This document shows, piece by piece, positions 7,715 to 61,432 of a stretch of DNA of 64,000 bases. Source of the DNA: Alkalicoccus sp. (GTDB lineage: Bacteria > Bacillota > Bacilli > Bacillales > Salisediminibacteriaceae); contig REBZ01000152.1 of the NCBI GenBank assembly GCA_007692495.1, forward strand, positions 80,626-144,625, in the 5' to 3' direction. The position numbers and the translations under genes are program-made. Numbering within the stretch: the stretch's first letter is position 1; every line of letters begins with the position of its first letter. The notes beneath the pieces are model-generated. The model did not search any database. It was given only the letters and a program-made list of their open reading frames with translations, and was not told the DNA's origin.

Positions 7715-8632
7715 TTACTCCCGGTGGGCTTCATAAAAAGCAGCTTTGGATGCATCTTTAACAGCGGAAATAATATCTTCCGATAAAGTATATTCTGAAG
7801 CACGGACATTATCACGGAGCTGCTCCGGTGTTCTGGCCCCCTGAATTGCTGCGGCCGGTGTATGGTGGTCCAAAATGTACCGGAGTGCAAGAGAGCTCAG
7901 AGGCATTCCGGCTTCATCAGAGATTTTTTGAAGTTCCTTTATTAAACGTTCGAGTTCCTGCCTGGAGTAATTTAAATAACCTTCATCCGTCAGTTTATTT
8001 AAATAATTATTCGTCAGAAGACCTTTAGCTACAGGGCCCCGGGCGATGATGGAAACCTGACTCCTGTCCAGAAGCGGCATCCATTCTTCCGGCCTCCGGT
8101 CAAGAATGCTGTACTGCATCATATTGCTGACAATACTGCTTTCTTCTGTGAATTTTTTTATTACGTTGGGACGGATGGAAGAAATGCCGTAATAACGAAT
8201 TAGGCCTTCTTTTGTCAGTTCCTCCATGGCCCCGGTCATTTCTTCGAATGGATCTTCGACGGTCCCGCCGTGGAGCTGATATAAATCTATATAATCTGTC
8301 TGAAGTCTCTTCAATGAATTTTTGCAGGCTTCTTTAATATATTCTTTGGAAGGGTTCCAGCGCCAGCCGTCAATTCCTTCACCCCATTCGTTTCCTCCTT
8401 TTGTAGCAAGAACAACGTGTTCGCGTTTGGTTTTTAAAGCTTTACCTACAGATTCTTCATTAAAACCATATTGATACAAGTCTGCGGTATCAAAATAATT
8501 AATACCAGAATCGACGGCTTCGTGCAGAAGCTTTTCATTCTGCTGTTGGTTATCTGATAAAGACATGCAGCCAAACCCAATTTCAGATACGTAAAGACTG
8601 GAAGAACCGAGCTGATTTTTTTTCATACTCAA
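7715..8632 (-). CDS. Aldo/keto reductase (YqkF-like)
   Basis: GFGCMSLS, DTADLYQYGFNEESVGKAL, YIDLYQLHG motifs; position next to nudF. Confidence 0.93.
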   Translation of the reverse strand: MSMKKNQLGSSSLYVSEIGFGCMSLSDNQQQNEKLLHEAVDSGINYFDTADLYQYGFNEESVGKALKTKREHVVLATKGGNEWGEGIDGWRWNPSKEYIKEACKNSLKRLQTDYIDLYQLHGGTVEDPFEEMTGAMEELTKEGLIRYYGISSIRPNVIKKFTEESSIVSNMMQYSILDRRPEEWMPLLDRSQVSIIARGPVAKGLLTNNYLNKLTDEGYLNYSRQELERLIKELQKISDEAGMPLSSLALRYILDHHTPAAAIQGARTPEQLRDNVRASEYTLSEDIISAVKDASKAAFYEAHRE

Positions 8633-8782
8633 TCTACATCCTTTCTATTTCGTGAGTGTGATTTTACTCTACGTTAAGGATTGCAGAATCGCAAGTAATA
8701 CCCTATCCTTAAGAAGCAGTAATAAACAGCGCGGAACTCTCAGTTTAAATTGCAGAAAATAATTAACTTAAGAGGTGAAAGA

Positions 8783-9340
8783 ATGAGCCGGAAATTGTTT
8801 GAAAGAACGATAAAAATCGACCCTGTTTTCAAAGGGAAGATTATTGATTTGGAAGTCCAGGAAGTTGAGCTCCCCGATGGACAGAAGGGAAAAAGAGAAA
8901 TTGTACATCATCCGGGAGCCGTTGCAGTAATCTGCGTAACAGACTCAGAAAAAATGGTTCTCGTAAAGCAGTATAGAAAAGCTTTGGAAAAAGCTATAGC
9001 TGAAATTCCTGCAGGGAAGCTTGAAAAGGGTGAGGATCCGCTTTTATGTGCTCAGAGAGAACTGGAGGAGGAGACCGGAATCAAGGCTGCCAGCATGAAG
9101 GAAGTGGCATCTTTCTACACGAGTCCCGGCTTTGCAGATGAACTTGTTCACGTATATGAAGCAGCAAATCTCTCGACAGGAGAAGTACATACAGATGAAG
9201 ACGAATTTGTCGAGCGTATGGACGTAACGCTGGAAGAAGCGAAAAATATGATCAAATCCGGCGAAATTCACGATGCTAAAACGATGTATGCAGTACAGTA
9301 CTGGGAAATTCTAAAAGCATTTAATTATAATAATTATTAA
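8783..9340 (+). CDS. nudF: ADP-ribose pyrophosphatase, Nudix family
   Basis: Nudix box GxxxxxEDPLLCAQRELEEETGI; RBS aggtgaaag before ATG at 8783. Confidence 0.93.
   Translation: MSRKLFERTIKIDPVFKGKIIDLEVQEVELPDGQKGKREIVHHPGAVAVICVTDSEKMVLVKQYRKALEKAIAEIPAGKLEKGEDPLLCAQRELEEETGIKAASMKEVASFYTSPGFADELVHVYEAANLSTGEVHTDEDEFVERMDVTLEEAKNMIKSGEIHDAKTMYAVQYWEILKAFNYNNY
9325..9339. promoter_or_regulatory. PerR-box-like palindrome upstream of fur
   Basis: TTATAATAATTATTA matches 14/15 of TTATAATNATTATAA; overlaps the nudF 3' end. Confidence 0.45.
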
Positions 9341-9347
9341 ATTGTTA

Positions 9348-9362
9348 TGATAATCATTATCA
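9348..9362. promoter_or_regulatory. Fur box (7-1-7) upstream of fur
   Basis: TGATAATCATTATCA, an exact 7-1-7 inverted repeat. Confidence 0.75.
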
Positions 9363-9465
9363 TTTGACAGCTATTTTAATGGTTGAGTATAATAATAGAG
9401 GAAAGAACGGCCCTGCTATCGCAGGGAAAGCCTGAAGGCTACGCATCGATTGGGGGAAATGGACT

Positions 9466-9903
9466 ATGGAGCAAAGAATTGACCGGATTAAAAAGCAGCT
9501 GCACTCACAAAGCTATAAACTTACCCCTCAGCGGGAAGCAACGGTGCGTGTTCTCCTCGAACATGAAGATGATCATTTGAGTGCTGAAGAAGTATATATG
9601 CTCGTTAAAGAAAAGTATCCGGAGATCGGACTGGCAACAGTTTATCGTACGCTGGAACTGCTTACAGAATTAAAAGTAGTAGATAAAATAAATTTCGGGG
9701 ATGGAGTTTCCAGATACGATCTGCGTCAGGAAGGGGCGGATCACTTCCATCACCATCTAGTCTGTCTCGAGTGCGGGGCAGTGGATGAGATTCAGGAAGA
9801 CCTTCTTGGAGACGTGGAAAAAGTAGTGGAAAAGAGATGGAATTTTGAAATTAAAGACCATCGGCTCACTTTTCATGGAATATGTTACAGGTGCAGAACC
9901 TGA
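9466..9903 (+). CDS. fur: Ferric uptake regulator, Fur family
   Basis: LTPQREATVRVLLEHEDDHLSAEEVY, GLATVYRTLELL, HFHHHLVCLECGAVDE. Confidence 0.95.
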   Translation: MEQRIDRIKKQLHSQSYKLTPQREATVRVLLEHEDDHLSAEEVYMLVKEKYPEIGLATVYRTLELLTELKVVDKINFGDGVSRYDLRQEGADHFHHHLVCLECGAVDEIQEDLLGDVEKVVEKRWNFEIKDHRLTFHGICYRCRT

Positions 9904-9935
9904 TAACTCAGCGAATCAGTTAATTATAGTTGAAC

Positions 9936-9970
9936 AAAAACCGGTGGAAGCAATTTTCCGCCGGTTTTTA
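9936..9970 (+). terminator. Intrinsic terminator after fur
   Basis: aaaaaccggtggaa gcaatt ttccgccggttttta hairpin. Confidence 0.8.
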
Positions 9971-10180
9971 TGGATTTGCCCCTCCTATTTCAGCTTCTGT
10001 AAGAATTGTGCAGGCATTATAACGTGTATTCGGAATTCAGACGGTATACGCAGAATAGAAGCAGTTAATAGGTGAAACAAGACTTTTTAAATAACATTTT
10101 TTCATCTCCCTGTGCACGTTAGTGCGAAGATATGGTATTCTAAAAGTACAGGAAAGAGTCTGTGGGAGCGGGTGATTTCA

Positions 10181-11068: not shown

Positions 11069-11089
11069 GAGCATGCGCTCTGTTTAGAG

Positions 11090-12360: not shown

Positions 12361-12374
12361 AGGAGGCAGCAATT

Positions 12375-13187
12375 ATGACTTCAGTACAGAACGCAAAAAC
12401 ATTTATAGAAGAAAAAATGAAAGGAAAGGTGCCGGAGATTGGATTAATTCTCGGTTCAGGGCTTGGGGTGCTGGCCGAGGAAATAGAATCTCCTGTAGTC
12501 ATCAAATACAATGAGATTCCAGGTTTTCCATCTTCCACAGTAGCCGGCCATAAAGGACAGCTTGTTATCGGAACTCTGGAAGGAAAGCACGTAGTTGCTA
12601 TGCAGGGCAGATTTCATTTTTATGAAGGTTACGATATGGAACTTGTCACCCTCCCTGTTCGTGTCATGAAGGCCATAGGAGTTGAAAAGCTCATCGTAAC
12701 AAACGCCGCCGGCGGGATTAACGAGAATTTTGAACCCGGGGATCTCATGCTGATAGATGATCATATTAATCAGTTCGGTACGAATCCTCTTATCGGTAAA
12801 AATGATGAAACTCAGGGGGTCCGCTTTCCTGATATGTCCCAGGCCTATACCAGATCCCTGCTGGGCCTTGCCCAGGAGGCAGCAGACAGCGAGGGACTGA
12901 AAGTTCAACAAGGAACTTATGTAGGAACTACAGGTCCGTCCTATGAAACACCGGCAGAGGTCCGGATGCTCCGTGTACTCGGAGGAGATGCCGTAGGGAT
13001 GTCCACTGTGCCGGAAGTAATCGCGGCCCGTCACAGCAATATGGACGTTCTGGGAATATCCTGCATTTCAAATATGGCAGCAGGAATCCTTGATCAGCCG
13101 CTTGATCACAGCGAAGTAATTGAAACTACAGAGCGTGTTAAAAAAGACTTCCTTTCTTTAGTTAAAACTGTTGTTGGGAAAATGTAG
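12375..13187 (+). CDS. punA: Purine-nucleoside phosphorylase
   Basis: GLILGSGLGVLAEEIE, GHKGQLVIG, GRFHFYEGY, VTNAAGGIN. Confidence 0.96.
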   Translation: MTSVQNAKTFIEEKMKGKVPEIGLILGSGLGVLAEEIESPVVIKYNEIPGFPSSTVAGHKGQLVIGTLEGKHVVAMQGRFHFYEGYDMELVTLPVRVMKAIGVEKLIVTNAAGGINENFEPGDLMLIDDHINQFGTNPLIGKNDETQGVRFPDMSQAYTRSLLGLAQEAADSEGLKVQQGTYVGTTGPSYETPAEVRMLRVLGGDAVGMSTVPEVIAARHSNMDVLGISCISNMAAGILDQPLDHSEVIETTERVKKDFLSLVKTVVGKM

Positions 13188-13290
13188 AAGATTTAGTAAT
13201 GCAGATCGGGAAGCAGCCCGAATCTTCGCAGTTCATGGATGTTCTTTAATGGAATATCTTCCAGAATGTTAATTAGTCATTGCAGTATTC

Positions 13291-13326
13291 AAGCCGGGGT
13301 GCAGAAAGTATCGCTGCCCCCCGGCT
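13291..13326. terminator. Hairpin between punA and pdp
   Basis: agccggggtgcag / ctgccccccggct with one mismatch; no clear T-run. Confidence 0.45.
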
Positions 13327-13346
13327 TCAACAGGGAGGAATAAACC

Positions 13347-14651
13347 ATGAGAATGGTAGACATAATTGAGAAAAAAAGAAATGGCGGACAGCTTACTGAA
13401 AAAGAAATCCAGTTTTTTGTGGAAGGGTATACAAAAGGAGATATTCCGGACTATCAGGCCTCTTCACTTATGATGGCGGTTTATTTTCAGGGGATGAATC
13501 CGGAGGAAACCGCGCTTCTTACTCAGGCAATGGTGGATTCGGGGGAAACTATTGACTTATCCTCCATAGAAGGCCATAAAGTGGACAAGCATTCTACAGG
13601 AGGGGTCGGGGATAAGATCAGTTTCATTATCGGTCCACTCGTCGCTTCTGTTGGAGTTCCTGTAGCGAAAATGAGCGGCAGAGGCCTGGGTCATACAGGT
13701 GGAACGATCGACAAACTTGAGGCTATAAAAGGATTCAACGTGGAGATTACAAAGGAAGAATTTATTGAAAACGTCAATAAAAACAAGCTGGCTGTTGCCG
13801 GTCAGACAGGCAACCTGGCACCCGCCGACAAAAAATTGTATGCTCTTCGGGATGTAACAGCTACAGTTGATTCCATTCCGTTAATTGCGGGATCCATTAT
13901 GAGTAAAAAACTTGCTTCCGGTGCAGACAGTATCGTTCTCGACGTAAAAACCGGATCCGGGGCCTTTATGAAAAATCTGGAAGATTCAGAAGCCTTGGCC
14001 CGTGAAATGGTTCAAATAGGCAATAACCTCGGAAAGCAGACAGTAGCTGTAATCAGTGATATGAACCAGCCGCTCGGCTTTGAAGTAGGTAATGCCAACG
14101 AAATCAGGGAAGCAGCGGCAGTACTTCAGGGGGAGAAAATATCAGATCTTCGGGAACTTTCACTGGAGATCGGTGCCCACATGACGGTTCTCGCAGGAGT
14201 ATATTCATCTTATGAAACAGCTTACACAGAACTCGAAAAAAACCTCGACAACGGCCGGGCATTTGACGCCTTCCGCACATTTGTCAAAGCACAGGGCGGC
14301 GATACGGAAGTAATTGATAATCTGGACAAACTTCCGAAAGCGCCTTTCGATATTGAAGTCAAGGCTGCGAAAAGTGGTTACATCAACGCTATTGATGCAG
14401 CATCCGTCGGTGTTGCTGCGATGTACCTTGGAGCAGGAAGAGCGACGAAAGATGATCAGATCGATTACGGTGTGGGAATTACTCTTCAGAAAAAGATTGG
14501 CGACTACGCAGAAGCAGGAGAGCCGCTTGTTATCCTCCATGCTAATGAAGAAAACCCTGAAGATTCGGCAGTCAAAATCAAAGAAGCATACAGTATTACT
14601 GATGAGCAGCCGGACAAACTTCCGCTTATTTATAAAGTTATCAAAGAGTAG
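13347..14651 (+). CDS. pdp: Pyrimidine-nucleoside phosphorylase
   Basis: [49 protein letters not shown]. Confidence 0.97.
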
Positions 14652-14716
14652 TCGGACTATTTAGCTTGATATCATCTATTGAATATGCTATCTTGGAAAA
14701 AATAATTGAATAGAAA

Positions 14717-14885
14717 GATAGAGGTGCAGAATGGATCAGTACAGTACGTGAGCTGAAGGACAGCCGGGATCGTATTGAAAAGGCCGTTCTGCCGAAGGTT
14801 TTCTCCTGTCCTTACGGGGAACGACCTGGGGGCCCGTTGAATAAGCGGGTTACTGCCGTGAAGTGCTGCGGAGAGCTATCTTTTT
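14717..14885 (+). ncRNA. Lysine riboswitch (L-box) upstream of lysA
   Basis: Conserved AGAGGTGCAGA, CAGTA, GTTCTGCCGAAGG, CTGGGGGC and terminal GGAGAGCTATC in order. Confidence 0.93.
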
Positions 14886-14902
14886 CAATCCCGTCCGGGT
14901 TT

Positions 14903-14941
14903 GGGAAATGGATAGGTTTCAGCTGTTCATTTCCCTTTTTC
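14903..14941 (+). terminator. Riboswitch expression-platform terminator
   Basis: gggaaatgga...tcatttcccttttt, just before lysA. Confidence 0.8.
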
Positions 14942-14971
14942 TATGGATAAAAGATTGGAGTGTATAAATAG

Positions 14972-16309
14972 ATGAACGTTTATGGAACACAGCGTATTAA
15001 TGAGAACGGACAACTTGAAATTGGTGGAGTAGAGGCAGCGGGTCTCGCTGAAACTTATGGAACCCCTCTGTTTGTCTATGATGTAAAGGATATCCGGAAC
15101 AGAGCGGAAGAATTCCATGAAGCTTTTCGTGCGCAGGGGGTAAATTATCAGATTGCCTATGCGTCCAAAGCTTTCAGCTGTATCGCCATGATGGAACTGG
15201 CCAGAGATCTTGATCTCAGCCTGGACGTTGTTTCAGATGGAGAGCTTCATACAGCGCTGGAGGCTGGGTTTCCGGCAGAAAGAATTCATTTCCACGGTAA
15301 CAATAAAACTCCTGAAGAACTCGAAATGGCTGTGAAAGAAAAAATCGGCTGTATTGTTGTCGATAATTTCACCGAATTAACATGGTTGATGGCTTTGACT
15401 GAGAGTGAAAAAACCGAAATGGAAGTTTTGATCCGCCTTACTCCAGGAGTAGAGGCGCACACTCATGAATATATTTCCACAGGACAGGAGGATTCCAAAT
15501 TCGGTTTCGATTTGAACAGCGGGCAGGCGGACGAAGCAATCCGTCGTCTGCTTGACCATCCTTTTTTAAAGCTTCAGGGAGTGCATTCTCATATTGGTTC
15601 CCAGATTTTCCGGGCGGAAGGCTTTGAGGAAGCCGTAAAAGAAATCTACCGGATGATCCGCAAGTGGAAGGAATCTATGAATTACTACCCGGAAGTACTG
15701 AATGTGGGCGGAGGCTTTGGAATCCGATATGCTGAAAATGATAAACCGCTTCCGCTTCATGTATATATTGACCGTATGGTGGCTGCAGCGAAAGAAGAAG
15801 CTGAGGCGATGAACGAGCCGGTACCAGAGATCTGGATAGAACCTGGAAGGGCTCTCGTTGGTGAAGCTGGTACAACACTCTACAGCATTGGGGCGAGAAA
15901 GGACATTCCGGACGTCCGTACCTACGTTTCGGTTGACGGCGGTATGACGGATAATATCCGGCCCGCCCTTTATCAGGCAGAATATACAGCACTGCTCGCG
16001 AACCGGGCAGCAGAAAAAGTAGAGGAAACAGTATCCATTGCAGGCAAATGCTGTGAGAGCGGGGATATGCTGATCTGGGATCTGGAGCTTCCTGCAGTAA
16101 ATCAGGGCGATATTCTCGCAGTATTTGCTACAGGTGCCTATGGTTATTCAATGGCGAACAACTATAACCGAATTCTTCGTCCGGCAGTTGTTTTTGTCGA
16201 AGAAGGACAGCATGAAATTGTAATTGAACGAGAAACGCTGACCGATTTAACCCACAGAGAAAGAAGGTATTCCAGAGCTGCAGCGGTACAGAAAGAAAAG
16301 CAGGTTTAA
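14972..16309 (+). CDS. lysA: Diaminopimelate decarboxylase
   Basis: YGTPLFVYD, YASKAFSCIAM, HIGSQIF, EPGRALVGEAG, CCESGD. Confidence 0.96.
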   Translation: MNVYGTQRINENGQLEIGGVEAAGLAETYGTPLFVYDVKDIRNRAEEFHEAFRAQGVNYQIAYASKAFSCIAMMELARDLDLSLDVVSDGELHTALEAGFPAERIHFHGNNKTPEELEMAVKEKIGCIVVDNFTELTWLMALTESEKTEMEVLIRLTPGVEAHTHEYISTGQEDSKFGFDLNSGQADEAIRRLLDHPFLKLQGVHSHIGSQIFRAEGFEEAVKEIYRMIRKWKESMNYYPEVLNVGGGFGIRYAENDKPLPLHVYIDRMVAAAKEEAEAMNEPVPEIWIEPGRALVGEAGTTLYSIGARKDIPDVRTYVSVDGGMTDNIRPALYQAEYTALLANRAAEKVEETVSIAGKCCESGDMLIWDLELPAVNQGDILAVFATGAYGYSMANNYNRILRPAVVFVEEGQHEIVIERETLTDLTHRERRYSRAAAVQKEKQV

Positions 16310-21928: not shown

Positions 21929-22690
21929 ATGGGATACAGTGTTAAACTGCATGCTTTTGAAGGTCCGCTTGATCTTCTGCTGCACCTGATACAAAAGAAT
22001 GATCTGGATCTTCAGGATATTCCTGTTAAAGAAATAACGGATCAGTATATGACATATATTCATGCGATGCAGGTGCTGGAGCTGAATGTTGCCAGTGAGT
22101 ACCTCGTAATGGCTTCCACACTGCTTCACATGAAAAGCCGGCTTCTTCTTCCGATTGAGGAAAATAACTGGGATGAAGAATTATTAATCGAAGAGGAAGA
22201 AATAACAAAAGACAACCTCCTCGATAAATTGAAAGAATATAAACAGTTTAAAGAAGCAGCCGGTTCGCTTAAGGAAAAAGAAATGGAAAGAAGCGAACTG
22301 TTCACGAAGCCGGTTTCTGATCTGAGTCCTCTTATGGAAGAAGCAAAGGAAAAAGGGGAGACCCACGTCAGAGCTACAGTCTACGATATGCTCAAGGCTT
22401 TCAGCCGGGTAAATAAACGGAAGAAACAGGAACAGCAGTCAAGCCGGGTGTCGAAAGTTGCCAGAGAAGAGATACCTATTGAAAAAAAGATGGAAGAGGT
22501 ACTTCTGCAGCTGCATTCCTTTAAGGGAGAAACACTGTTTTCACGACTTTTCGAAAGACAAGAAAAACAGGAAATGGTTGTTACTTTCCTGGCCCTCCTT
22601 GAATTAATGAAAGCTGATCGGATTGTTTGTATGCAGGACGGGCATTACGAAGATATAAAAATTAAACAGAAAGCGGGCGGAACACCATGA
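21929..22690 (+). CDS. scpA: Segregation and condensation protein A
   Basis: KLHAFEGPLDLLLHLIQKNDLDLQDIPVKEITDQYM. Confidence 0.97.
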   Translation: MGYSVKLHAFEGPLDLLLHLIQKNDLDLQDIPVKEITDQYMTYIHAMQVLELNVASEYLVMASTLLHMKSRLLLPIEENNWDEELLIEEEEITKDNLLDKLKEYKQFKEAAGSLKEKEMERSELFTKPVSDLSPLMEEAKEKGETHVRATVYDMLKAFSRVNKRKKQEQQSSRVSKVAREEIPIEKKMEEVLLQLHSFKGETLFSRLFERQEKQEMVVTFLALLELMKADRIVCMQDGHYEDIKIKQKAGGTP

Positions 22691-23271
22691 CAGCAGTAAA
22701 TAAAAAAGCGGTCCTGGAAGGTCTGCTGTTTGTAGCAGGTGATGAGGGAATTGAAAAAGATCAGCTCATGGAAGTACTGGACCTTGATGCAGAACACCTT
22801 GATCTTTATATAGATGAATTGAAAAAAGAGTACGGGAAAAGCGAGAGAGGAATACAGGTTCAGGAGGTTGCTGGGGGCATGAAATTTACTACAAAAAAAG
22901 AACACGCTGAGTTTTATAAAAAACTTGTACGCTCCCCATCATCTGCCGCACTGTCCCAGGCTGCACTCGAAGCTCTGGCTGTTATTGCCTACAGGCAGCC
23001 GGTTTCCAGAATGGATATTGAGGAAATTAGAGGCGTTAAAACAGAAAGGCCGCTCCGGACGCTGCAGGCTAAAGGGCTCGTAGAACAAAACGGAAGACAG
23101 GAAGGAACGGGAAGAGCAATTCTATATGGGACCACCAATCATTTTCTTGATCAATTTGGTTTATCTTCCCTGGATGATCTGCCGCCGTTTCCGGAACAGG
23201 CAGAAGAAAAAGAAGAAGAATACGATTTGTTTTTTGATAAATTTCAAAAGGCAGTAGCTGAGGATAAGTGA
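22687..23271 (+). CDS. scpB: Segregation and condensation protein B
   Basis: LEGLLFVAGDEGI, SQAALEALAVIAYRQPVSRMDIEEIRGV; overlaps scpA. Confidence 0.97.
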   Translation: MTAVNKKAVLEGLLFVAGDEGIEKDQLMEVLDLDAEHLDLYIDELKKEYGKSERGIQVQEVAGGMKFTTKKEHAEFYKKLVRSPSSAALSQAALEALAVIAYRQPVSRMDIEEIRGVKTERPLRTLQAKGLVEQNGRQEGTGRAILYGTTNHFLDQFGLSSLDDLPPFPEQAEEKEEEYDLFFDKFQKAVAEDK

Positions 23272-23282
23272 TTTGTCAGAGT

Positions 23283-23314
23283 AAAAGCACAGCTGCATCA
23301 GCAGCTGTGCTTTT
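23283..23314 (+). terminator. Intrinsic terminator after scpB
   Basis: aaaagcacagctgc atca gcagctgtgctttt. Confidence 0.92.
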
Positions 23315-23560
23315 CAGGCTGTTGATAAAGTGTTTTTTATGTATAGATAGACGATTCCCCTCATGATAAATCCCCTTGTTTAAGCTGTTTTTTTGATAAA
23401 GAGTTGGCTTTCCCTCCGTAGCGTCCGGTGGGATGGAGCGCCGTCAGATCACGGCGCAGGCCAAACAACTGAAGAGCAGCCCCACGGCAGGCTCGGTAAG
23501 AGAAGGAGCTTATACAACGACTGGAATAACTATTCTGAAACGATAACTTAATCAACAAGT
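23315..23560 (-). repeat. Dispersed non-coding element family A, copy A3
   Basis: caggctgttgataaagtg ... ctggaataactattctgaaacgataacttaatcaacaag; terminal inverted match; reverse orientation to A1/A2. Confidence 0.85.
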
Positions 23561-23678
23561 TTTCTAAAAGAGTTTTGCCGAACAAGTCTTTATTCTGCAG
23601 CTGAGTCCTTGTCTCTGCATGTTTAAAAAGCCTGTGGAGATAAAGGTAAGGCATAAAGACGATAGTACTGACAATTTA

Positions 23679-24479
23679 TTACCTCATGACACTTCCACCG
23701 GATATTTTTAAGGATTCGCCTACAATGTTTCCCGAAGCTCCGGAAAGCAGGTATAAAATAGCTGAAGCTACTTCTTCAGGAGTAGTAATTCTGCCTGAGG
23801 GCAGATCTTTCTTGACTGCTTCAAGCTGTTCATCGTAAGTAATTCCTGCACGAAAAGCTTTTTTATCAAGTATATCTCTGGCCATTTCCGTGTCAACGAA
23901 GCCTGGACAGACTGCATTGACGCGGATTCCATACTCTATAGCTTCGAGAGCGAACGACTGTGTAAATCCAATAAGAGCAAACTTCGAACCGGAATAGGCA
24001 GTATTACCGTAAGTACCACGCAGACCTGAAAGGGAAGAAACGTTAACAATATTACCGCGGCGCTCCTTTTTCATTTCTTTGTAAATAAGCTGCGAAAGCA
24101 TTACCTGTGAGGTGAAATTTGTTTCCAGTACGTGAATGATTTCGTTTTCTTCAATTTTTTCTACGAGATCTCCTCCCGTTATGCCGGCAGCGTTAACGAG
24201 ACCTGTTATTTCACCGAAGTGCGTCCTGGCTTCCTGAACAATCTTTTCTCTATCCTCCGGATTGTTCAAATCACCTGCTACTATATGTATATGGCTTCCT
24301 TCAGCCTGATAGTGCGCAGACTGTTTCAATTTATTCAGTTTTTCCTCATTTCTGCCGCAGGCAGTGACTTTTGCCCCGGTTTTTAAAAGCTCCATGGCCG
24401 TCACGTAGCCAATTCCCCCAGTAGCTCCTGTAACCACAATATGATCATTAGCAAACGTGTTCGCAGCAAATATACTCAT
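23679..24479 (-). CDS. Short-chain dehydrogenase/reductase
   Basis: VTGATGGIGYVTA, NAAGITGG, YSGSKFALIGFTQ motifs. Confidence 0.92.
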   Translation of the reverse strand: MSIFAANTFANDHIVVTGATGGIGYVTAMELLKTGAKVTACGRNEEKLNKLKQSAHYQAEGSHIHIVAGDLNNPEDREKIVQEARTHFGEITGLVNAAGITGGDLVEKIEENEIIHVLETNFTSQVMLSQLIYKEMKKERRGNIVNVSSLSGLRGTYGNTAYSGSKFALIGFTQSFALEAIEYGIRVNAVCPGFVDTEMARDILDKKAFRAGITYDEQLEAVKKDLPSGRITTPEEVASAILYLLSGASGNIVGESLKISGGSVMR

Positions 24480-24948
24480 TCAAAAATCCCCCTTTTAGTT
24501 GTTATGCACTTTATTTCCCTTCTATAAAAAGATAAAACAACAACTGATTTCTGAGAAGGATTGGTACTGCCTGTAATGAAGTTAAATAATCTCAGTACCC
24601 GGATTTCATGAATAATCAGCACTGTAATAAAGGGAGTGTTAAAATAAGTATGAATTACGTAATAAAAAAGGTTGGAAAAAACGAATAATGGACAGGTCTT
24701 CCGTCTCAGACGAACGCTTCCCCTGGAGCTTGTCTTCAGCTGACTTTTGTGAAAGCCTTTCACAGAAGTCGATTTTCACTCTGCGTAAAATCCTCCGAGA
24801 GTCGCCGTCATGCAATTCGGCCCTCTTATGGGACGGACAAAAGTATTCAGATCGTTCATTTATTTGTTTGAAAAAGTTCAATTATTAATTGATTCATTAA
24901 GAAAAATTTTATAAAAACATCCACACGAGCAGCAGAGGAGCAGCCGCT

Positions 24949-26364
24949 ATGAAAATAACGAAAAGCCCAATACGTCTTATTTCAGCTTTAATCCTTTCCG
25001 TCGTTCTGGCGGCAACTTTGTACGGGCTTTTTAAGCCAATCCCTGAAAATACTTCCTATGAAGGAGAGATGCACTCAGCAGATAACGTATCTTTTCTCTA
25101 CAACCGATCGATTAATGATAATGGGGAAAGAATTTTTGAGGAGCATATTTTTTCTTCTATTATTGAGGAGATTGAAGAGGCAGAAGATATGATCGTACTG
25201 GATATCTTTATGTTTAATGAAATGGCTGAAGGTGATTTTCCAGATGTGAGCAGAGAAATAGCCGAAGCACTTATCGATAAAAAAAAGGAAGATCCGGAAA
25301 TGTCAATAACGGTTATCACAGATCCTATTAATACTTCCTACTATTCCCATGAATCAGAGCTGCTGAATGAAATGGAAGAAGAAGACATTCAAATAGTGAT
25401 TACTGATATTACAAAACTTCAGGATTCCAACCCGCTTTATTCCGGAATATGGCGGGCATTCATTCAATGGTTTGGTCAGAGCGGGCGGGGATGGATAGAA
25501 AATCCATTTGATCCGGACGCACCGGAAATGACTGCGAGATCTATACTTAAATTAATGAATGGGCGTGCAAACCACCGTAAAGTGTTTTTTACAGAAAAAA
25601 CCGCACTGATATCCTCCGCAAATATTCACGACGAAAGCTATTACTATACAAATACTGGCTTTCAGGTTTCAGGGAAGGTACTAAAAGATATTTATGAAAC
25701 AGAACAGGCGGTGCTGAATTTTTCCTCCGACGTTAATCTTCCTGATTTTCGTGTGGAAGAGGAGGAAGGAGAATATAATGTTCAGGTTCTGACTGAAGGA
25801 GCCAACTTTCAAAGAGTCCAGAAAATGCTGGATGATGCTGAGTATGGAGACGAGGTGTGGATAGGGGTCTATTTTATTTCTGATCCGGACATAATTGAAT
25901 CAATCGAAGAAGCAGCTTTAAGAAATGTAGAAATAAATATGATACTGGATCCAAACGAAAGTGCTTTCGGTATTGAAGTGTTTGGGATGCCCAACCGTCC
26001 AGTTGCTGAAGATTTAATTGAAAGTACGGGGGAATCTTTAACGGTACGGTGGTACAACACGCTGGATGAGCAGTTTCATCCTAAAATGATGGCTGTTTTT
26101 TCCGAGGACCATGCGAAAATGATCGCCGGCTCCGCTAATTTTTCCAGCAGAAACATGAGAAATAACAATCTGGATACTAATTTATACGTGGAATCCCCGC
26201 CGGATGCAGAAGCAGCAGTTGAAGTGAGGGAGTGGTTTGAGGAGATTTGGTTTAATGAGTCTCATAAATACACAGCCGACTACGAGGAGTATGAAAATCC
26301 CCATTCTGCCTGGCGGCATTGGGTATATCGTCTGCAAAAAATATCCGGTGTGACGACTTATTAA
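24949..26364 (+). CDS. Phospholipase D-like / cardiolipin-synthase-like membrane-anchored protein
   Basis: N-terminal TM, two degenerate HKD-type blocks (NHRKVFFTEKTALISSANIHD; FHPKMMAVFSEDHAKMIAGSANFSSRN). Confidence 0.8.
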   Translation: MKITKSPIRLISALILSVVLAATLYGLFKPIPENTSYEGEMHSADNVSFLYNRSINDNGERIFEEHIFSSIIEEIEEAEDMIVLDIFMFNEMAEGDFPDVSREIAEALIDKKKEDPEMSITVITDPINTSYYSHESELLNEMEEEDIQIVITDITKLQDSNPLYSGIWRAFIQWFGQSGRGWIENPFDPDAPEMTARSILKLMNGRANHRKVFFTEKTALISSANIHDESYYYTNTGFQVSGKVLKDIYETEQAVLNFSSDVNLPDFRVEEEEGEYNVQVLTEGANFQRVQKMLDDAEYGDEVWIGVYFISDPDIIESIEEAALRNVEINMILDPNESAFGIEVFGMPNRPVAEDLIESTGESLTVRWYNTLDEQFHPKMMAVFSEDHAKMIAGSANFSSRNMRNNNLDTNLYVESPPDAEAAVEVREWFEEIWFNESHKYTADYEEYENPHSAWRHWVYRLQKISGVTTY

Positions 26365-26393
26365 CTTAATCAGACACATGGATAACAGGCTTT

Positions 26394-26500
26394 CAGGCTG
26401 TTAATAAACTATTTTTCAGATATACGGCAGCTGAGCGTCGGGAAGACGTATCCATCCCACCGGATAATAATCGTGAAAGCAGAACTTAATCAATAAGTTG
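26394..26500 (-). repeat. Dispersed non-coding element family A, short copy A4
   Basis: caggctgttaataaact ... tccatcccaccgg ... acttaatcaataagttg. Confidence 0.65.
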
Positions 26501-26532
26501 AAAGGAGGCGCCTGAAAGGGAGGCCTCCTTTA
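26501..26532. terminator. Terminator-like hairpin next to A4
   Basis: aaaggaggc/gcctccttt 9-bp stem. Confidence 0.45.
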
Positions 26533-26559
26533 CAAGTAATGGTTCATGGTGTTTATTTG

Positions 26560-26885
26560 TATAGCTGTGATAAAGTTCGCTGTTGATGACTCGTGAAAAA
26601 AACTCTGCTTCTACCCGGCCTGCCGTGGAGCAGATCTCCGACTGGCACTCCGTCCTGCGGGATCTCCCGGCCTCCTTTTTTCACTGGCATCCGCCGGTTT
26701 CCGCTTCGTTTTTCTCTCCGATTATAAGGAGAAGTGCCTGTTTATCATGAATAAGGTTTCTATTCGTAAAACATGCGCCAAGGTGATTTTTCGAGACGCC
26801 TGCGGAAAAAGATAATTGAAAGCTTTCTCCGCGGGAGGTGAAATGAGCGGCAGGCGCCCTTCCATCAACAAGGAGTTTTACTTAG
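26560..26885 (+). repeat. Dispersed non-coding family B, long copy B3
   Basis: gataaagttcgctgttgatgactcgtg ... ctccgactggcactccgtcctgcgggatctcccgg ... gcctgcggaaaaaga...ctccgcgggagg...gcggcaggcgcccttccatcaacaaggag. Confidence 0.7.
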
Positions 26886-26965
26886 CCATTTTGTACATAA
26901 TAAAATTACAGTTAATAATTGTGTTCATTTATACAGGATTTGCTGAAATATTTTTAAAAGCCCTT

Positions 26966-27796
26966 TTAAGACGATTCTATTTCTGAAAGAAAGTTCTTAA
27001 TTTCATCGTGGAAGTCTCTGCTCTGATGCAGGGAGTTATGGCCAAAACCTTCCAGCTCTACTTGGTGTACATCTCCGTTCCAGTTATTAAATGTGACATA
27101 GGAGTGATCCGGGGGGATTACTCTGTCCTCTGAAGCGGTAATGCCGAGCAGAGGGGCTTCCGACTGCTCCGCCATATTGCTCACTTCAAAAGGATGGCGG
27201 ATAAACGCAGATATTGGGAGGTACGGATAACGGTGGGACTGAAGTTCTTCGCGGCTGTCATATGGAGATATAAGTATGACACCAGCCGGATCTCTGTTTC
27301 TGGCTGTATGGGCTGCAGGAGCAGTCCCCATACTTCTCCCCATAACTGCAATCCTGCTTTCTTTAACTTTTTCATGAGAAGAGGCATAATCATACAAAAG
27401 AAGAGCATCCTTGAATAACGTGGATTCTTCCGGCTCACCTGAACTGTTTCCATAGCTGCGGTAATTCATGAAAAGAACAGACCAGTCGTCAGGTATATCA
27501 TATTGTTCAATACCCGCAGAAGCTTCTTCTGCGTTCCCTCCGAAATACATAAGCAGCGGGGCGGGCGTTGTACCGGCATGCTGGATCCAGCCGTGCAGAA
27601 TTTCCCCATCCTCTGTTTCAAGATAGAGCTCTTCCGTATTATTCCATTCCGAATTCACTTCGTCGATTCTATCCTCCGTAATGTCTGCCCCAATAAAAAG
27701 CATATCCTCCTGGCTGCCGAGAACCTGCCAGGCATGAAACAAATATACTGCTGAAGCTCCTGTGATTAAAAGTAGAATAACTTTCATAAACGGCAC
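26966..27796 (-). CDS. Alpha/beta hydrolase (YfhR-like membrane-anchored)
   Basis: N-terminal TM, YFGGNAEE, NYRSYGNSSGEPEES, GRSMGTAPA nucleophile elbow, GHNSLH. Confidence 0.88.
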   Translation of the reverse strand: MPFMKVILLLITGASAVYLFHAWQVLGSQEDMLFIGADITEDRIDEVNSEWNNTEELYLETEDGEILHGWIQHAGTTPAPLLMYFGGNAEEASAGIEQYDIPDDWSVLFMNYRSYGNSSGEPEESTLFKDALLLYDYASSHEKVKESRIAVMGRSMGTAPAAHTARNRDPAGVILISPYDSREELQSHRYPYLPISAFIRHPFEVSNMAEQSEAPLLGITASEDRVIPPDHSYVTFNNWNGDVHQVELEGFGHNSLHQSRDFHDEIKNFLSEIESS

Positions 27797-27957
27797 CCGC
27801 TCCTTTCATAAGTTTATATGTTTTTATTCTTTCCGACTGTCGGGTGGAAGCTGTGGCTTCAGCCTTTCTTTCGTGCGAATTCCGCGGTACAATATATTAC
27901 TGGGGCTGTATATACCCGTAGTCGTTGTCGTGATGATAACATAAAGGAGAGATTGTA

Positions 27958-28677
27958 ATGGAAAGACTTCAAAAAATAATAGCAAATGCCGGTATTACAT
28001 CGAGAAGAAAAGCAGAGACGCTTATTACCGGCGGTAAAGTCAAGGTTAACGGTGAAACAGTCAAAGAACTGGGATTTAAAGCCGACATTCACCAGGATGA
28101 AATTATTGTTAATGGAGTACCGCTTGAAAAAGAAGAGCCGGTATACTTCCTGCTTTATAAACCATCGAACGTTATTTCCAGTGTGAAGGATGAATCCGGC
28201 AGAAAGGTTGTCACGGACTATATTCCTGCAGAGCAGCGGATATATCCAGTAGGGAGGCTTGATTTTGATACTTCAGGCGTCCTGATCATGACGAACGATG
28301 GTGAGTTTGCCAATATGCTTATGCATCCGAAATACAAAGTGGAAAAAATGTACATTGCCAAGGTTGAGGGAATTCCGTCGAAACAGGCTGTACAGAAGCT
28401 GAACAGAGGAGTAAAGCTGGATGATGGCAAGACAGCTCCTGCCTTCGCGAAAGTCCGCAAAACAGATAATAAAAAAGGCACTGCAATTATTGAACTCACG
28501 ATTCATGAGGGCCGGAACCGGCAGGTGCGAAGAATGCTGGAAGCAGTGGGGCATCCTGTAATTAAGCTGAAAAGGGAACGCTACGGGATTCTCGATTTAA
28601 AAGGAATGAATGCCGGCGAATACCGGGAGTTAAAGCCTCATGAAGTAAAAAAGCTGCGTGAACTCTCTGTCACATAA
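27958..28677 (+). CDS. rluB: Ribosomal large subunit pseudouridine synthase B
   Basis: S4 domain MERLQKIIANAGITSRRKAE, GRLDFDTSGVLIMTNDGE, EGRNRQVRRM. Confidence 0.95.
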   Translation: MERLQKIIANAGITSRRKAETLITGGKVKVNGETVKELGFKADIHQDEIIVNGVPLEKEEPVYFLLYKPSNVISSVKDESGRKVVTDYIPAEQRIYPVGRLDFDTSGVLIMTNDGEFANMLMHPKYKVEKMYIAKVEGIPSKQAVQKLNRGVKLDDGKTAPAFAKVRKTDNKKGTAIIELTIHEGRNRQVRRMLEAVGHPVIKLKRERYGILDLKGMNAGEYRELKPHEVKKLRELSVT

Positions 28678-45348: not shown

Positions 45349-45366
45349 ATAAAGTATATACTTTAT
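45349..45366. promoter_or_regulatory. 18-bp perfect palindrome in the phr-fhs divergent intergenic region
   Basis: ATAAAGTATATACTTTAT. Confidence 0.4.
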
Positions 45367-45569
45367 TTATACAAACAGCTGAATTTATTTTCGTGTAAAA
45401 GAATTATTTTCTATATTTTTCATCCATAATAACTACTTCTTCCGTACCATAAAAATTTCACCGGCCTTTGAACAACCCTTTAAGAAAACGTTTACATGCT
45501 GTCTTGCAGAGATTTCCTGAATTGTTTATGATAGATACAGAAAGAATAAAACATAGAGGAGCGTTATGT

Positions 45570-47243: not shown

Positions 47244-47453
47244 CAGCCGCCGGCAGCAGCTTAAACAGTGCCTGAAGGCTGGCAGTATTTAAGAAAACAA
47301 GATGCTTTCCTGAAGGATGGTACGATTTTTCACGAAAATAAGAACCGGATTTTAACATGGCTCTGCCAGGATAAAATCGAAAGAGTCTCAGCTGTCTTCT
47401 TAACCCGGCGCTGTGGTACGATAAAAGTACTTACAGGTCAGTTGGAGGAGAAG

Positions 47454-48203
47454 ATGCTGAGACTTTTTATTATTGCAGGTGCAGCAGGAGCGGCTCTTAT
47501 TGCTTTTATGTTTATCCGGGCAGGCAGAACAAATATATGCAGGCATGAATTTGCTGTTCTTAAGGAAGGGTGCAGTCAGAATTTACTTTTTATTTCTGAT
47601 ATTCACAACAGAGCTGTAAAGGAAAAAGATCTGCTCACAGGCGAAGAAATCGATGCTGTACTGATAGGGGGAGATCTTACGGAATCGGGAACCCGCACCG
47701 GTGTCATTGATCGCAATCTGGCTCGGCTGGCATCTGTTGGACCATTATACTTCGTATGGGGAAACAATGATTATCAGAGAAGAAAAGTACTGCAGAGGCT
47801 GTTCCAAAAATACTCCGTTACAGAGCTGAACAATTCCAGTGTTCCTATGGGAGGCGGATGCTGGACACTTGCAGGTATAGAATACCGCAGTCTTCAGCTG
47901 GACAGCCTTACTAAAGCGCTCGAAAAAGCCGCCAGTCCCGTTGTATTAATGAGCCACGGTCCGGATATTAAAGAGGAGCTGGACAGTGCTGATAATATTA
48001 AGCTTGTACTGGCAGGTCATACGCATGGCGGTCAAATAAGGCTAGGATTTTATGCGCCGGCCCCTCTCGGAGGAATTACTGTGGAGAAAGGCGTGTCCAT
48101 TCTTATTTCCAACGGCTACGGAACTACAAAACTGCCACTTCGTCTTGGAGCACCGCCTCAGCTGCATTTTATCAGGCTGACAGAGAAAAAGGGCGCTGCT
48201 TGA
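47454..48203 (+). CDS. Metallophosphoesterase (YpbG-like)
   Basis: LFISDIHN, IGGDLTESG, WGNNDY, LAGHTHGGQIRLG. Confidence 0.92.
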   Translation: MLRLFIIAGAAGAALIAFMFIRAGRTNICRHEFAVLKEGCSQNLLFISDIHNRAVKEKDLLTGEEIDAVLIGGDLTESGTRTGVIDRNLARLASVGPLYFVWGNNDYQRRKVLQRLFQKYSVTELNNSSVPMGGGCWTLAGIEYRSLQLDSLTKALEKAASPVVLMSHGPDIKEELDSADNIKLVLAGHTHGGQIRLGFYAPAPLGGITVEKGVSILISNGYGTTKLPLRLGAPPQLHFIRLTEKKGAA

Positions 48204-48278
48204 AGTATTACCAGCTTTCCTATATCCTTGGTTAAATGTGAAACTTTATAAATATATGAGAAGCAGGTGACTTGTGCG

Positions 48279-49178
48279 ATGAGCGAGCCGCAGGGAAAAT
48301 ACAATATAAAAGCAGTATCAAACCTGCTTGGAATACATTCCGGAACGCTCCGGGCCTGGGAGCGCCGGTATAAGATTATAGAGCCGGTCAGAAATGAGGC
48401 CGGTCACAGGCTGTACAGCGAAGATCATATCAGGATTCTTAAGTGGATAGTAAATAAAGTTAACAGCGGGTTTACTATTGGACAGGCAGTCGATCTTCTT
48501 AATAATAAAGACGAACCGGCATTTATAGAACCCGACCCGAGAATGACGGATCAAATGGACATTATGAAAGAAAAACTTCTGCATGAACTTCTGCAGTTTA
48601 ACGAAAGCGGATCAAATGAGTTAATCGACAGGGCCTTCGGGCTTTTCTCGACTGACAAAGTGCTTATAAGAATACTTGGGAGTATTTTGGCAGAAGTGGG
48701 AAACCGGTGGGAAAAAGGGATGATTACAACAGCTCATGAGCATTTCGTTACGTCGCTTATCCGTACGAGAATCGGTATGGTGTTTCACACACTTCCGGTC
48801 AACAGTTTTCTTCCAAAAGCTGTATGTGTCTGTGGTCCCGACGAGAATCATGAAATTGGGCTTCTGATCTTTACGTACTTTCTAAAAAAGCGGGGATATG
48901 AAACGATTTATCTCGGTGCAGGCATCCCCGAAACGGATTTCTATAAAGTAGTCGCAGATGTGGGAGCAGGGTTCGCTATCGTATCTACTACTCTCGCAGA
49001 GAACCTTCCGAAGACTCTCGCGATGGCCGAATCGCTGGCTGACCGTAATAAAAGTGTCAAGATAGGGCTTGGAGGAAAAGCGTTGAATTACATGAAAGAA
49101 GCTGATAAAAAAAAGTTCAGTGAAATGCTCATCGGGGAAACGGAGAAAGACTGGACAACATGGTTAAAAGAGCAGTGA
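48279..49178 (+). CDS. CarH/LitR-type MerR regulator with cobalamin-binding photoreceptor domain
   Basis: MerR HTH (YNIKAVSNLLGIHSGTLRAWERRYKIIEPVRNEAGHRLYSEDHI), W-X9-E-H (WEKGMITTAHEH), E-x-H-x2-G (ENHEIG), STTL, GLGGKAL. Confidence 0.93.
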   Translation: MSEPQGKYNIKAVSNLLGIHSGTLRAWERRYKIIEPVRNEAGHRLYSEDHIRILKWIVNKVNSGFTIGQAVDLLNNKDEPAFIEPDPRMTDQMDIMKEKLLHELLQFNESGSNELIDRAFGLFSTDKVLIRILGSILAEVGNRWEKGMITTAHEHFVTSLIRTRIGMVFHTLPVNSFLPKAVCVCGPDENHEIGLLIFTYFLKKRGYETIYLGAGIPETDFYKVVADVGAGFAIVSTTLAENLPKTLAMAESLADRNKSVKIGLGGKALNYMKEADKKKFSEMLIGETEKDWTTWLKEQ

Positions 49179-52927: not shown

Positions 52928-53602
52928 ATGGTAGGCATATTTACAGCAGCTTTTGCGCCTGCGGCAGCTCTACTGCTCTTTTTTTACTTAAAGGATGAGT
53001 TTGGACAGGAACCGGTTTACATGGTGATCCGTTCCTTTGTATTCGGGGCACTGCTTGTATTCCCTGTGATTTTTATTCAGTTTGTAATAACCGAGGAAAC
53101 AGGCGCAGCATCTATGCTGTTTCAAGTAATAGTTCAAACGGCTCTTCTCGAGGAATTTTTAAAATGGTTTGTTGTGCTGCTCACTGTCTTTTTTCATGTC
53201 CATTTTAACCAGAGGTACGATGGCATAGTATATGCGTGCGCGGTAGGTCTGGGATTTGCAGCGATGGAAAACGTCTTCTACCTTCTGGCTGACGGGCTTG
53301 ATACAGCCTTCCTTCGTGCTGTCTTTCCCACGACAAGTCATGCGTTGTTCGGAGTTGTAATGGGGTATTATCTCGGGGCAGCGAAGTTTTCCTCGAGAAA
53401 AAAACTTTTTTTAGCTGCAGCGCTGGTAGTGCCTGTTTTGCTGCACAGTGCATATAATTTTATTCTTCTTTATTTCAGCAGCTGGTCCTATTTGATTATT
53501 CCTTTTATGGTATTTTTATGGATTTTTGCAATGAGAAAAGTTAAAGCAGCAAATATCGCTCAAAAAGAGGCTGAAAATAATGTGAAATGGCAGTTTTCTT
53601 GA
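52928..53602 (+). CDS. prsW: PrsW-family intramembrane protease
   Basis: LLEEFLKWFVVL (EExxK), RYDGIVYACAVGLGFAAMENVFYLL, TTSHALFGVVMGYYLG. Confidence 0.93.
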   Translation: MVGIFTAAFAPAAALLLFFYLKDEFGQEPVYMVIRSFVFGALLVFPVIFIQFVITEETGAASMLFQVIVQTALLEEFLKWFVVLLTVFFHVHFNQRYDGIVYACAVGLGFAAMENVFYLLADGLDTAFLRAVFPTTSHALFGVVMGYYLGAAKFSSRKKLFLAAALVVPVLLHSAYNFILLYFSSWSYLIIPFMVFLWIFAMRKVKAANIAQKEAENNVKWQFS

Positions 53603-53681
53603 ATGAGGGACCCTGTTTCTTGTATAGTAAATTTAAAGATCTCTAAGTATAAGAACTTAATGAGGAAGGGAAGTGGGTTTT

Positions 53682-53849
53682 TTGCCTGAAACAAAACAGC
53701 GCTATAAAGTTACGATCAGGTGCCGGGAATGCGGCGAAAAATACATCCTTCGGGGCCGTCCGAATGAAGACGGTGGGTTTGATACCGGATTTAAACGTTG
53801 TGTATGTGGTAATGAAACAGCATTTGATCTGGACGTAACACCGGAATAA
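53682..53849 (+). CDS. 55-aa zinc-ribbon-like small protein (TTG start; not in ORF track)
   Basis: Translation (M)PETKQRYKVTIRCRECGEKYILRGRPNEDGGFDTGFKRCVCGNETAFDLDVTPE with CxxC and CxC, GA-rich RBS region before TTG, terminator directly after. Confidence 0.65.
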   Translation: MPETKQRYKVTIRCRECGEKYILRGRPNEDGGFDTGFKRCVCGNETAFDLDVTPE

Positions 53850-53865
53850 TTTAATTTCTGCATAT

Positions 53866-53898
53866 AAAAAATACGGCAGTTGCTGCCGTGTTTTTTTA
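53866..53898. terminator. Intrinsic terminator after the zinc-ribbon ORF
   Basis: aaaaaatacggcagttgctgccgtgttttttta. Confidence 0.9.
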
Positions 53899-53990
53899 GG
53901 GTGATTCTAATATCCGGGGACATTAGACCTGAATTTGCCCTTGTGTTAAGATGAAAAAGTATTTAATTAAAGTATAGTGAAGAGGTTGAC

Positions 53991-54677
53991 GTGATGCATG
54001 AAAAAATAAATGTAGCAATTGACGGGCCGGCAGGCGCAGGAAAGAGCACAGTGGCAAGGGAACTGGCTTCCCGCCTCGGATATGTTTATATTGACACCGG
54101 AGCGATGTATAGAGCACTGACATGGAAAGCTCTGGAAAGCGGAGCAGGGTGTGAAGATGAATCTTCCCTTGCTGAAATCCTTCAGAAAATGGAACTTGAG
54201 CTGCTTAATAATAACGGTGTGCCTGAAATTATCGTTGACGGCAGGAATGTCACGGATGAAGTCCGGCTTCCGGAAATTACGAATAATGTTTCGTACACTG
54301 CCAGACACCCGCACATCAGAGAATACATGGTACAGAAACAGCAGGAACTTGCAGCGGAGGGAGGGACAGTCATGGACGGCAGGGATATCGGTACTGCAGT
54401 ACTCCCTGGTGCAGAAGTGAAATTTTTTCTAAATGCGACTGTTGACGAAAGGGCAGCAAGAAGACATGAAGAACAGCTCAGCAAAGGAATGGATTCTGAT
54501 CTTGAACTATTGAAATCCGAAATCTCACGCCGGGACATGCTGGACTCCGAAAGAGAAACAGCTCCTCTTAAAAAAGCAGATGATGCGGAGGAAGTGGATA
54601 CAACACAAATGAATGTTAATGAAGTAGTGGATTATCTGTACAGCCGGATACAGAGAAAGCTGGCAGCTTATGAATAA
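53991..54677 (+). CDS. cmk: Cytidylate kinase
   Basis: NVAIDGPAGAGKSTVARELASRLGYVYIDTGAMYRALTW, DGRDIGTAVLP. Confidence 0.97.
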   Translation: MMHEKINVAIDGPAGAGKSTVARELASRLGYVYIDTGAMYRALTWKALESGAGCEDESSLAEILQKMELELLNNNGVPEIIVDGRNVTDEVRLPEITNNVSYTARHPHIREYMVQKQQELAAEGGTVMDGRDIGTAVLPGAEVKFFLNATVDERAARRHEEQLSKGMDSDLELLKSEISRRDMLDSERETAPLKKADDAEEVDTTQMNVNEVVDYLYSRIQRKLAAYE

Positions 54678-56502: not shown

Positions 56503-56519
56503 ATATACTGTTGAAAATG

Positions 56520-58092: not shown

Positions 58093-58127
58093 TTTATATC
58101 ACTGTATCAGATGAGGGGGTCGGTTCA

Positions 58128-58751: not shown

Positions 58752-58755
58752 TGAC

Positions 58756-59811: not shown

Positions 59812-59813
59812 AG

Positions 59814-59848
59814 CAATTCCCCCCGGGAAAATTTCCCGGGGGGAATTG
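59814..59848. terminator. Perfect 17-bp stem, minimal-spacer inverted repeat after gpsA
   Basis: caattccccccgggaaa-a-tttcccggggggaattg. Confidence 0.7.
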
Positions 59849-59986
59849 TATGTGTAGAGGCTGAATATGTGACAATTTATCGACGTTTGGAATACCGCCC
59901 GGCATGCATAGTTTACGTTTATGCATCTGGATAAATAGTGTGCTATAATGATGCAGAATTGAAAGCTGAGAGGGGAGGAAAAGCGT

Positions 59987-60190
59987 ATGTTCGATGATCC
60001 TTTATTGAAGATGTGGGTGTCTTTTATAGCCATGGCCCTCATGTTTCTCTCCGTAGTGATAACTATTTTTACAAAAGAAAAGCTGACAGGGGTGCTTCGT
60101 TACTCACTATTGACGATGAGCTTTGTGTGCATCGTAGTGTCCGGACTGATTGTTTTAGTAATAACTTTCAGCGGTCCTGTACCGGAGTAA
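59987..60190 (+). CDS. DUF2768 small membrane protein (YphE-like)
   Basis: Two predicted TM segments, synteny between gpsA and yphF. Confidence 0.75.
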   Translation: MFDDPLLKMWVSFIAMALMFLSVVITIFTKEKLTGVLRYSLLTMSFVCIVVSGLIVLVITFSGPVPE

Positions 60191-60220
60191 GACAGAATAT
60201 TACGTAAGGCGGGAGTAATA

Positions 60221-60946
60221 ATGAAAACAACCCAATTGATTTTTCTTGCGCTTACAGTCATTCTTTTAAGCGGCTGTTTATACCCCCAGGAAGAAAGAAG
60301 CAGACAGCATGGGCCAAATCAGGAGCAGGTGGACAGGGTACAGAATGCGGTAACTCAGTTTCAGGAAAGCACTGGCGTTCTGCCTATTGCCACCCGGGAA
60401 GCAGACACTCCTACGTTTCGCAGATACCCTGTGCAGTTCACACAGCTGATTCCTTCTTATATCAGTGAACCTCCTGGCAATGCATTTGAAAATGGCGGAA
60501 ATTATCAGTACGTTCTCGTGAATGTAGAGGAATTTCCGACTGTAAAATTGATTGACCTCACCACTACTAGAACAATTCAGGAGGTCGAAACGCGTATATT
60601 CTCCTACCGCAGTTCTAACGATTACGCGCCGGTGGAGGAAGTCGTAGGAGATGAACTTCTCAGGCTTGATTACGAAGCGCTCGGCTACGATGAGGAGCCT
60701 GTAGTGGACAGCCCGTTTCACCCTGATCACCGGCTGCCGCTGCTATTTACTACGAAGGGGGAAGTAGTAATCGACTTTTCACTTGATATTCAATATTATA
60801 TTGATGAATACGGGATGGAAGATTATGAAGAAGGTGACGATTTACGCTGGCTTCTTGTTGATCATTCTCCATTTGTCCCTGCTTACTCTGTACCACAGAC
60901 TCTGGAGGACGGAGAAATAGTTTTTACTGAAGGGGACCAGGGGTAG
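60221..60946 (+). CDS. YphF-like lipoprotein
   Basis: Lipobox LLSGC; synteny. Confidence 0.8.
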   Translation: MKTTQLIFLALTVILLSGCLYPQEERSRQHGPNQEQVDRVQNAVTQFQESTGVLPIATREADTPTFRRYPVQFTQLIPSYISEPPGNAFENGGNYQYVLVNVEEFPTVKLIDLTTTRTIQEVETRIFSYRSSNDYAPVEEVVGDELLRLDYEALGYDEEPVVDSPFHPDHRLPLLFTTKGEVVIDFSLDIQYYIDEYGMEDYEEGDDLRWLLVDHSPFVPAYSVPQTLEDGEIVFTEGDQG

Positions 60947-60952
60947 TCACTA

Positions 60953-60985
60953 GGCGGGTTTTTTTCATAAATCCCGCCTTTTATT
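60953..60985 (+). terminator. Terminator after yphF
   Basis: aggcgggtttttttcataaatcccgccttttatt. Confidence 0.85.
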
Positions 60986-61159
60986 GTATAAATTATCCAT
61001 ATTAGCCAGAAAAAATATAAAAAATCGATGAAATACATAAAAAATGTTGAATTTACGGGCTTTTTCGTATAACATAAGCCTTGTTATCCCGTCATATCAA
61101 GGGTTAACGCTTTTAGAACTAAAAGTGACGTTACTACATCTTGCAGGGAGGTGAACAGA

Positions 61160-61432
61160 TTGAATAAAACAGAACTAATCAATGCAGTTGCAGAAAAGAC
61201 TGACCTTTCTAAAAAGGATGCAACAGGTGCTGTAGACGCAGTTTTTGATATTATCACTGATGCGCTTCAGAAGCAGGAAAAAGTTCAGCTGATTGGCTTC
61301 GGTAACTTTGAAGTCCGCGAGCGTGCTGCCCGTAAAGGCCGTAACCCGCAGACTGGCGAAGAAATCGAAATTCCGGCGAGCAACGTACCTGCATTCAAGC
61401 CTGGTAAAGCCCTTAAAGATGCAGTAAAGTAA
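61160..61432 (+). CDS. hbs: HU family DNA-binding protein HBsu
   Basis: [93 protein letters not shown] start. Confidence 0.97.

Follow-up and report, generated by a model that had tools for sequence, protein, structure and literature searches.

The bacterium from which this stretch of DNA derives, a haloalkaliphile, descends from endospore formers. All tested genes for engulfment, forespore, mother-cell, spore-core and germination functions have been cleanly excised in place, and the phosphorelay Spo0F-Spo0B-Spo0A has been kept together with its catalytic motifs. The explanation that best covers all the observations, and that we regard as highly probable, is a clean loss of spore genes in which the phosphorelay and a Spo0A-to-AbrB switch were kept, with an independent occurrence in Salisediminibacterium. 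The main pattern, Spo0A present and spore genes gone, is already described for a relative, Bacillus selenitireducens MLS10, which has Spo0A and lacks sigE/F/G/K, spmA, spmB, spoIIM, spoIIE, spoIVA, spoIVB and all SASPs (PMC3533761, Table 5). Exiguobacterium and Macrococcus caseolyticus are further Spo0A-containing non-spore-formers with the same missing set (PMC3533761); they stand outside the Alkalicoccus family and are likened to it from the published listing alone.

Genomes compared

The window is the whole stretch analysed, 64,000 nucleotides long (G000:C211:80626-144625), and belongs to a metagenome-assembled genome (G000) of 2.74 Mb in 220 contigs, 80.8% complete. Its source is an Alkalicoccus adjoining A. 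saliphilus: the protein encoded by pdp is 96% identical to that of Alkalicoccus saliphilus 6AG and 97% identical to that of the metagenome-assembled genome Bacillus sp. CSSed10_241R1. The family set comprised 35 genomes, namely eight of Alkalicoccus (g1), three of a Salisediminibacterium-like genus (g6) and 24 others. Six of the eight Alkalicoccus genomes are about 99% complete, and G003 is a complete single-contig chromosome. One g6 genome, G012, was taken as that of Bacillus (Salisediminibacterium) selenitireducens, its 3,592,487 bp agreeing with the published 3592 kb. A spore-gene-bearing relative, G008, served as the reference for the junctions, and genes in the window were identified with NCBIfam and Pfam.

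Five empty junctions

A sequence-only reading of the window had pointed to five places where housekeeping genes flank a gap that holds spore genes in related spore formers, and all five are as it described. The features are as follows.

8750..9340, + strand: nudF, flank of junction 1
9341..9465, + strand: junction 1, nudF/fur, without spoIIM and without the TIGR00375-family gene seen there in G008
9466..9903, + strand: fur, flank of junction 1 (NF051892 above cut-off)
13347..14651, + strand: pdp, flank of junction 2
14652..14971, + strand: junction 2, pdp/lysA, without the dacF-spoIIAA-spoIIAB-sigF-spoVA block
14711-14886: lysine riboswitch inside junction 2
14972..16309, + strand: lysA, flank of junction 2
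22687..23271, + strand: scpB, flank of junction 3
23272..27957, + strand: junction 3, scpB/rluB, without dacB-spmA-spmB
23283-23314: hairpin, 14-bp perfect, terminator-like, after scpB in junction 3
23679-24479, - strand: SDR gene in junction 3
24949-26364, + strand: PLD-domain gene in junction 3
26966-27796, - strand: alpha/beta hydrolase gene in junction 3
27958..28677, + strand: rluB-family pseudouridine synthase gene, flank of junction 3
52928..53602, + strand: prsW, flank of junction 4
53603..53990, + strand: junction 4, prsW/cmk, without sleB-ypeB and without ypfA
53673-53849: 58-aa ORF inside junction 4
53991..54677, + strand: cmk, flank of junction 4
60221..60946, + strand: yphF-like gene, named from position only, flank of junction 5
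60947..61150, + strand: junction 5, yphF/hbs, without spoIVA
61151..61432, + strand: hbs (HU protein), flank of junction 5

Two details of the earlier description have to be corrected: the "repeat" after scpB is the terminator-like hairpin, and the ORF between prsW and cmk is 58 rather than 55 amino acids long. This ORF was considered as a leftover of the lost spore genes and rejected, because its conservation in G008, G003 and G012 amounts to 75-90%, and spore-gene-bearing relatives have one too; it has no Pfam match.

The backbone of the window genome is colinear, gene by gene, with that of G008, which carries extra genes exactly at the five named points, as the reading had held for spore-forming relatives. 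At junction 1 these are the TIGR00375 gene and spoIIM. Junction 2 holds dacF, spoIIAA, spoIIAB, sigF, SpoVAA/SpoVAB/SpoVABEA-type genes and a GerA-type gene; junction 3, ahead of rluB, has dacB and two Gate-domain proteins, equated with spmA/spmB by position and size. Junction 4 contains sleB, ypeB and ypfA, the last encoding a PilZ protein, and junction 5 contains spoIVA. In seven Alkalicoccus and Salisediminibacterium genomes without spore genes, pdp and lysA are 323-540 bp apart; in 14 relatives the distance is 4.6-10.8 kb. Upstream of the window on the same contig, the spoIIIA operon is absent from the efp-accB junction and spoIVB from the recN-spo0A junction. The junctions are clean: a low-stringency tblastn search with 18 proteins of the spore-gene bearer gave no credible remnant or pseudogene of a spore gene in the regions from G000, G003 and G012, its only credible match being ypfA in G012. 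The proposal that spore genes were shed individually from a preserved backbone fits the kept gene order and the seven dispersed losses with intact flanks, whatever the order and number of the deletions.

Several other differences were observed in the window. The gene for YpfA, a PilZ-type c-di-GMP receptor (53603-53990), and a DUF3907 gene that follows scpB (23272) are lost in Alkalicoccus and kept in G012. A second purine nucleoside phosphorylase gene lies beside punA in G003, G008 and G012, and the window (12375-13347) is without it. Alkalicoccus pdp (13347-14651) shows 60-63% identity to other family members and 73-76% to Domibacillus, Priestia koreensis and Terrihalobacillus, suggesting that it may have been replaced in place by horizontal transfer. 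A photolyase gene is found close to a gene for a B12-binding MerR/CarH-like regulator (43657-49178), and the two are possibly a light-response pair.

Spore genes across the family

By gene content, the whole genus is asporogenous, as had been proposed for the lineage. sigF (at its curated cut-off), SpoIVA, SpoIIM, SpoIIE (above cut-off), and SASP together with GPR are each absent from the same 11 of the 35 family genomes, the eight of Alkalicoccus and the three of g6, and present in the other 24. The window genome therefore has none of sigF, SpoIVA and SpoIIE, by whose presence an endospore former was to be recognized, and neither SASP nor the GPR protease. It is also without the essential stage II-IV genes, judged genome-wide for sigF, spoIIE, spoIIM and spoIVA and at syntenic sites only for spoIIIA and spoIVB. 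SpoIIID was likewise not found in it. The absence of spmA/spmB and sleB/ypeB was judged at syntenic positions only. Matches to the SigF model in Alkalicoccus, at about 184 bits, were rejected as sigF, being under the 321-bit cut-off and adjoined by a PP2C gene; they are read as the SigB operon.

The spore genes of G013 score low (SpoIIM 126 bits vs 202-233; GPR 352 vs mostly 405-425; one SASP) and are perhaps a set under relaxed selection. G046 has sigF and SpoIVA and no Spo0A_C match, and in G082 the Spo0A_C match is divided between two frames; either case may be an assembly error or a real loss.

The retained phosphorelay

Among the genes that the sequence-only reading proposed to seek genome-wide, sigF, spoIIE, spoIVA and gpr are indeed absent, but spo0A is present and intact. 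Since spo0F and spo0B are present and intact as well, the initiation machinery has not been lost. The C-terminal domain of Spo0A is intact in 11/11 genomes without spore genes; in G000 it lies at C211:48091-48402 (E 6e-45), and the phosphorylation region and recognition helix are intact. Full-length reading of Spo0A in ten genomes shows a conserved phosphorylation region (LDIIMPH) and recognition helix and a varying C-terminal tail. In G012 and G018, residues that follow the recognition helix, in a segment contacting sigma-A, are changed; in Alkalicoccus they are mostly intact. Spo0F, with 50-61% identity to that of B. subtilis, and Spo0B also occur in 11/11; Spo0B was counted only from SPOB_a matches of about 170-230 aa, as larger sensor kinases also match SPOB_a. 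The phosphoacceptor motifs are kept in the Spo0F and Spo0B copies that were read (LLDMKIPG and RHDYLN, respectively, in G000).

Upstream regions of spo0A and abrB

The promoters and 0A boxes described here are predicted, as motif matches. In B. subtilis the spo0A promoter region is laid out as Pv, 0A boxes and Ps (PMC12090719). The spore-gene bearers of the family share this layout of a sigma-A-like -10, a 0A box and a sigma-H-like promoter with a further 0A box overlapping it: 0A boxes occur at about -200 and about -65 in 9/9, the latter overlapping the sigma-H-like promoter in most, and an extended -10 is found at -212 to -233 upstream of spo0A in 7/9. Alkalicoccus and Salisediminibacterium differ from B. 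subtilis in this respect. Upstream of spo0A in ten asporogenous genomes there is no exact 0A box and no sigma-H-like promoter; G021 was left out of this count because its upstream region is unplaceable. A sigma-A-like extended -10 is present at -71 to -93 from spo0A in nine of the ten, G005 being without it. The distance from the end of recN to the Spo0A start region is about 100-340 nt. It looks as if spoIVB was deleted together with Ps and the 0A boxes and the vegetative promoter was kept; we infer that the extended -10 of the asporogenous genomes is the ancestral Pv.

At abrB, a 0A box (TGTCGAA) is found at about -75 in 9/9 asporogenous loci, with a chance expectation of 0.003 per locus, in a leader that is otherwise diverged. 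In a wider survey, abrB was the only downstream gene with an extended 0A box common to G000, G003 and G012; within Alkalicoccus alone, two further genes share such a box among genomes, one pfkA-like and one sensor-like. Extended 0A boxes number 19-28 in the asporogenous genomes vs 48 in G013, a difference that is only suggestive, as base composition differs.

These motifs, and their conservation, suggest as the likely mechanism that autoamplification of Spo0A to the sporulation level is gone. Spo0A would instead be expressed vegetatively at a low level, repress abrB and in this way control stationary-phase functions.

Origin of the pattern

Did sporulation disappear once or twice? Alkalicoccus and Salisediminibacterium have the same loss set, a kept phosphorelay and a shortened spo0A upstream region, as would be expected from a single loss in their common ancestor. 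However, in a tree built from 12 proteins whose genes are linked within a single chromosomal region (FastTree and quick trees), the sister of Alkalicoccus is G013 (SH-aLRT 100), which has sigF in its ancestral position between pdp and lysA and also encodes SpoIVA, SpoIIE, SASP and GPR. Forcing Alkalicoccus and Salisediminibacterium into one clade costs 96 log-likelihood units and is rejected (AU p = 9e-8), and a single loss would require regain of genes at many scattered loci. A single loss is thus improbable. Because G013 is the sister and the joint clade is rejected, Salisediminibacterium, under the 12-protein tree, reached its state of Spo0A without spore genes independently of Alkalicoccus. 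B. selenitireducens resembles Alkalicoccus in its empty junctions and shortened spo0A promoter but belongs to another lineage, which lost its spore genes separately; its Spo0A has also diverged further.

That assembly incompleteness produced the gaps, or that the genes moved elsewhere, is scarcely credible, even though the window genome is incomplete. The five junctions lie within one 148.8-kb contig, and the same searches that detect sigF, SpoIVA, SpoIIM, SpoIIE, SASP and GPR in spore-gene-bearing relatives find none in the six nearly complete members of the genus. As the genes are missing in 8/8 Alkalicoccus genomes, neither relocation nor incompleteness accounts for the gaps; sigF, spoIVA and spoIIM, whose presence elsewhere would have spoken against the earlier reading, are not found even in the complete chromosome. 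Alternatively, Spo0A, Spo0F and Spo0B might be functionless leftovers of a recent loss that have yet to decay. Relative to spore-gene bearers, the Spo0A DNA-binding domain does change 2-3 times faster in Alkalicoccus, and in Salisediminibacterium the rate is much higher, so that part of Spo0A function may be decaying, and Spo0F of G018 has the lowest identity of all, 50%. Yet all three proteins are intact in every one of the 11 genomes, in lineages that hold no trace of a spore gene, the abrB 0A box is kept in 9/9 loci, and Spo0A dN/dS is about 0.05, indicating purifying selection, although dS is saturated. We regard functionless leftovers as unlikely. Most likely, both lineages independently reduced sporulation to a vegetative Spo0A-to-AbrB switch, whose function we infer. 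The chances are about even that they converged on the same small circuit, composed of the phosphorelay, a feedback-free Spo0A expressed from a vegetative promoter only, and AbrB as the sole conserved target.

Meaning for Spo0A in non-spore-formers

The persistence of Spo0A in non-sporulating bacteria has been ascribed to recent loss of sporulation or to an alternate role (PMC6136694). Together with G013, the sister that bears spore genes, Alkalicoccus and Salisediminibacterium provide a natural replicate. This case favours an alternate role, because no trace of the spore genes is left whereas phosphorelay and abrB 0A box are both still there; abrB is the likely target of that role. The findings suggest a function for Spo0A outside spore formation. 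If the two lineages did converge on the same small circuit, such a reduced Spo0A module, no longer tied to sporulation, would account for the presence of Spo0A in non-spore-formers.
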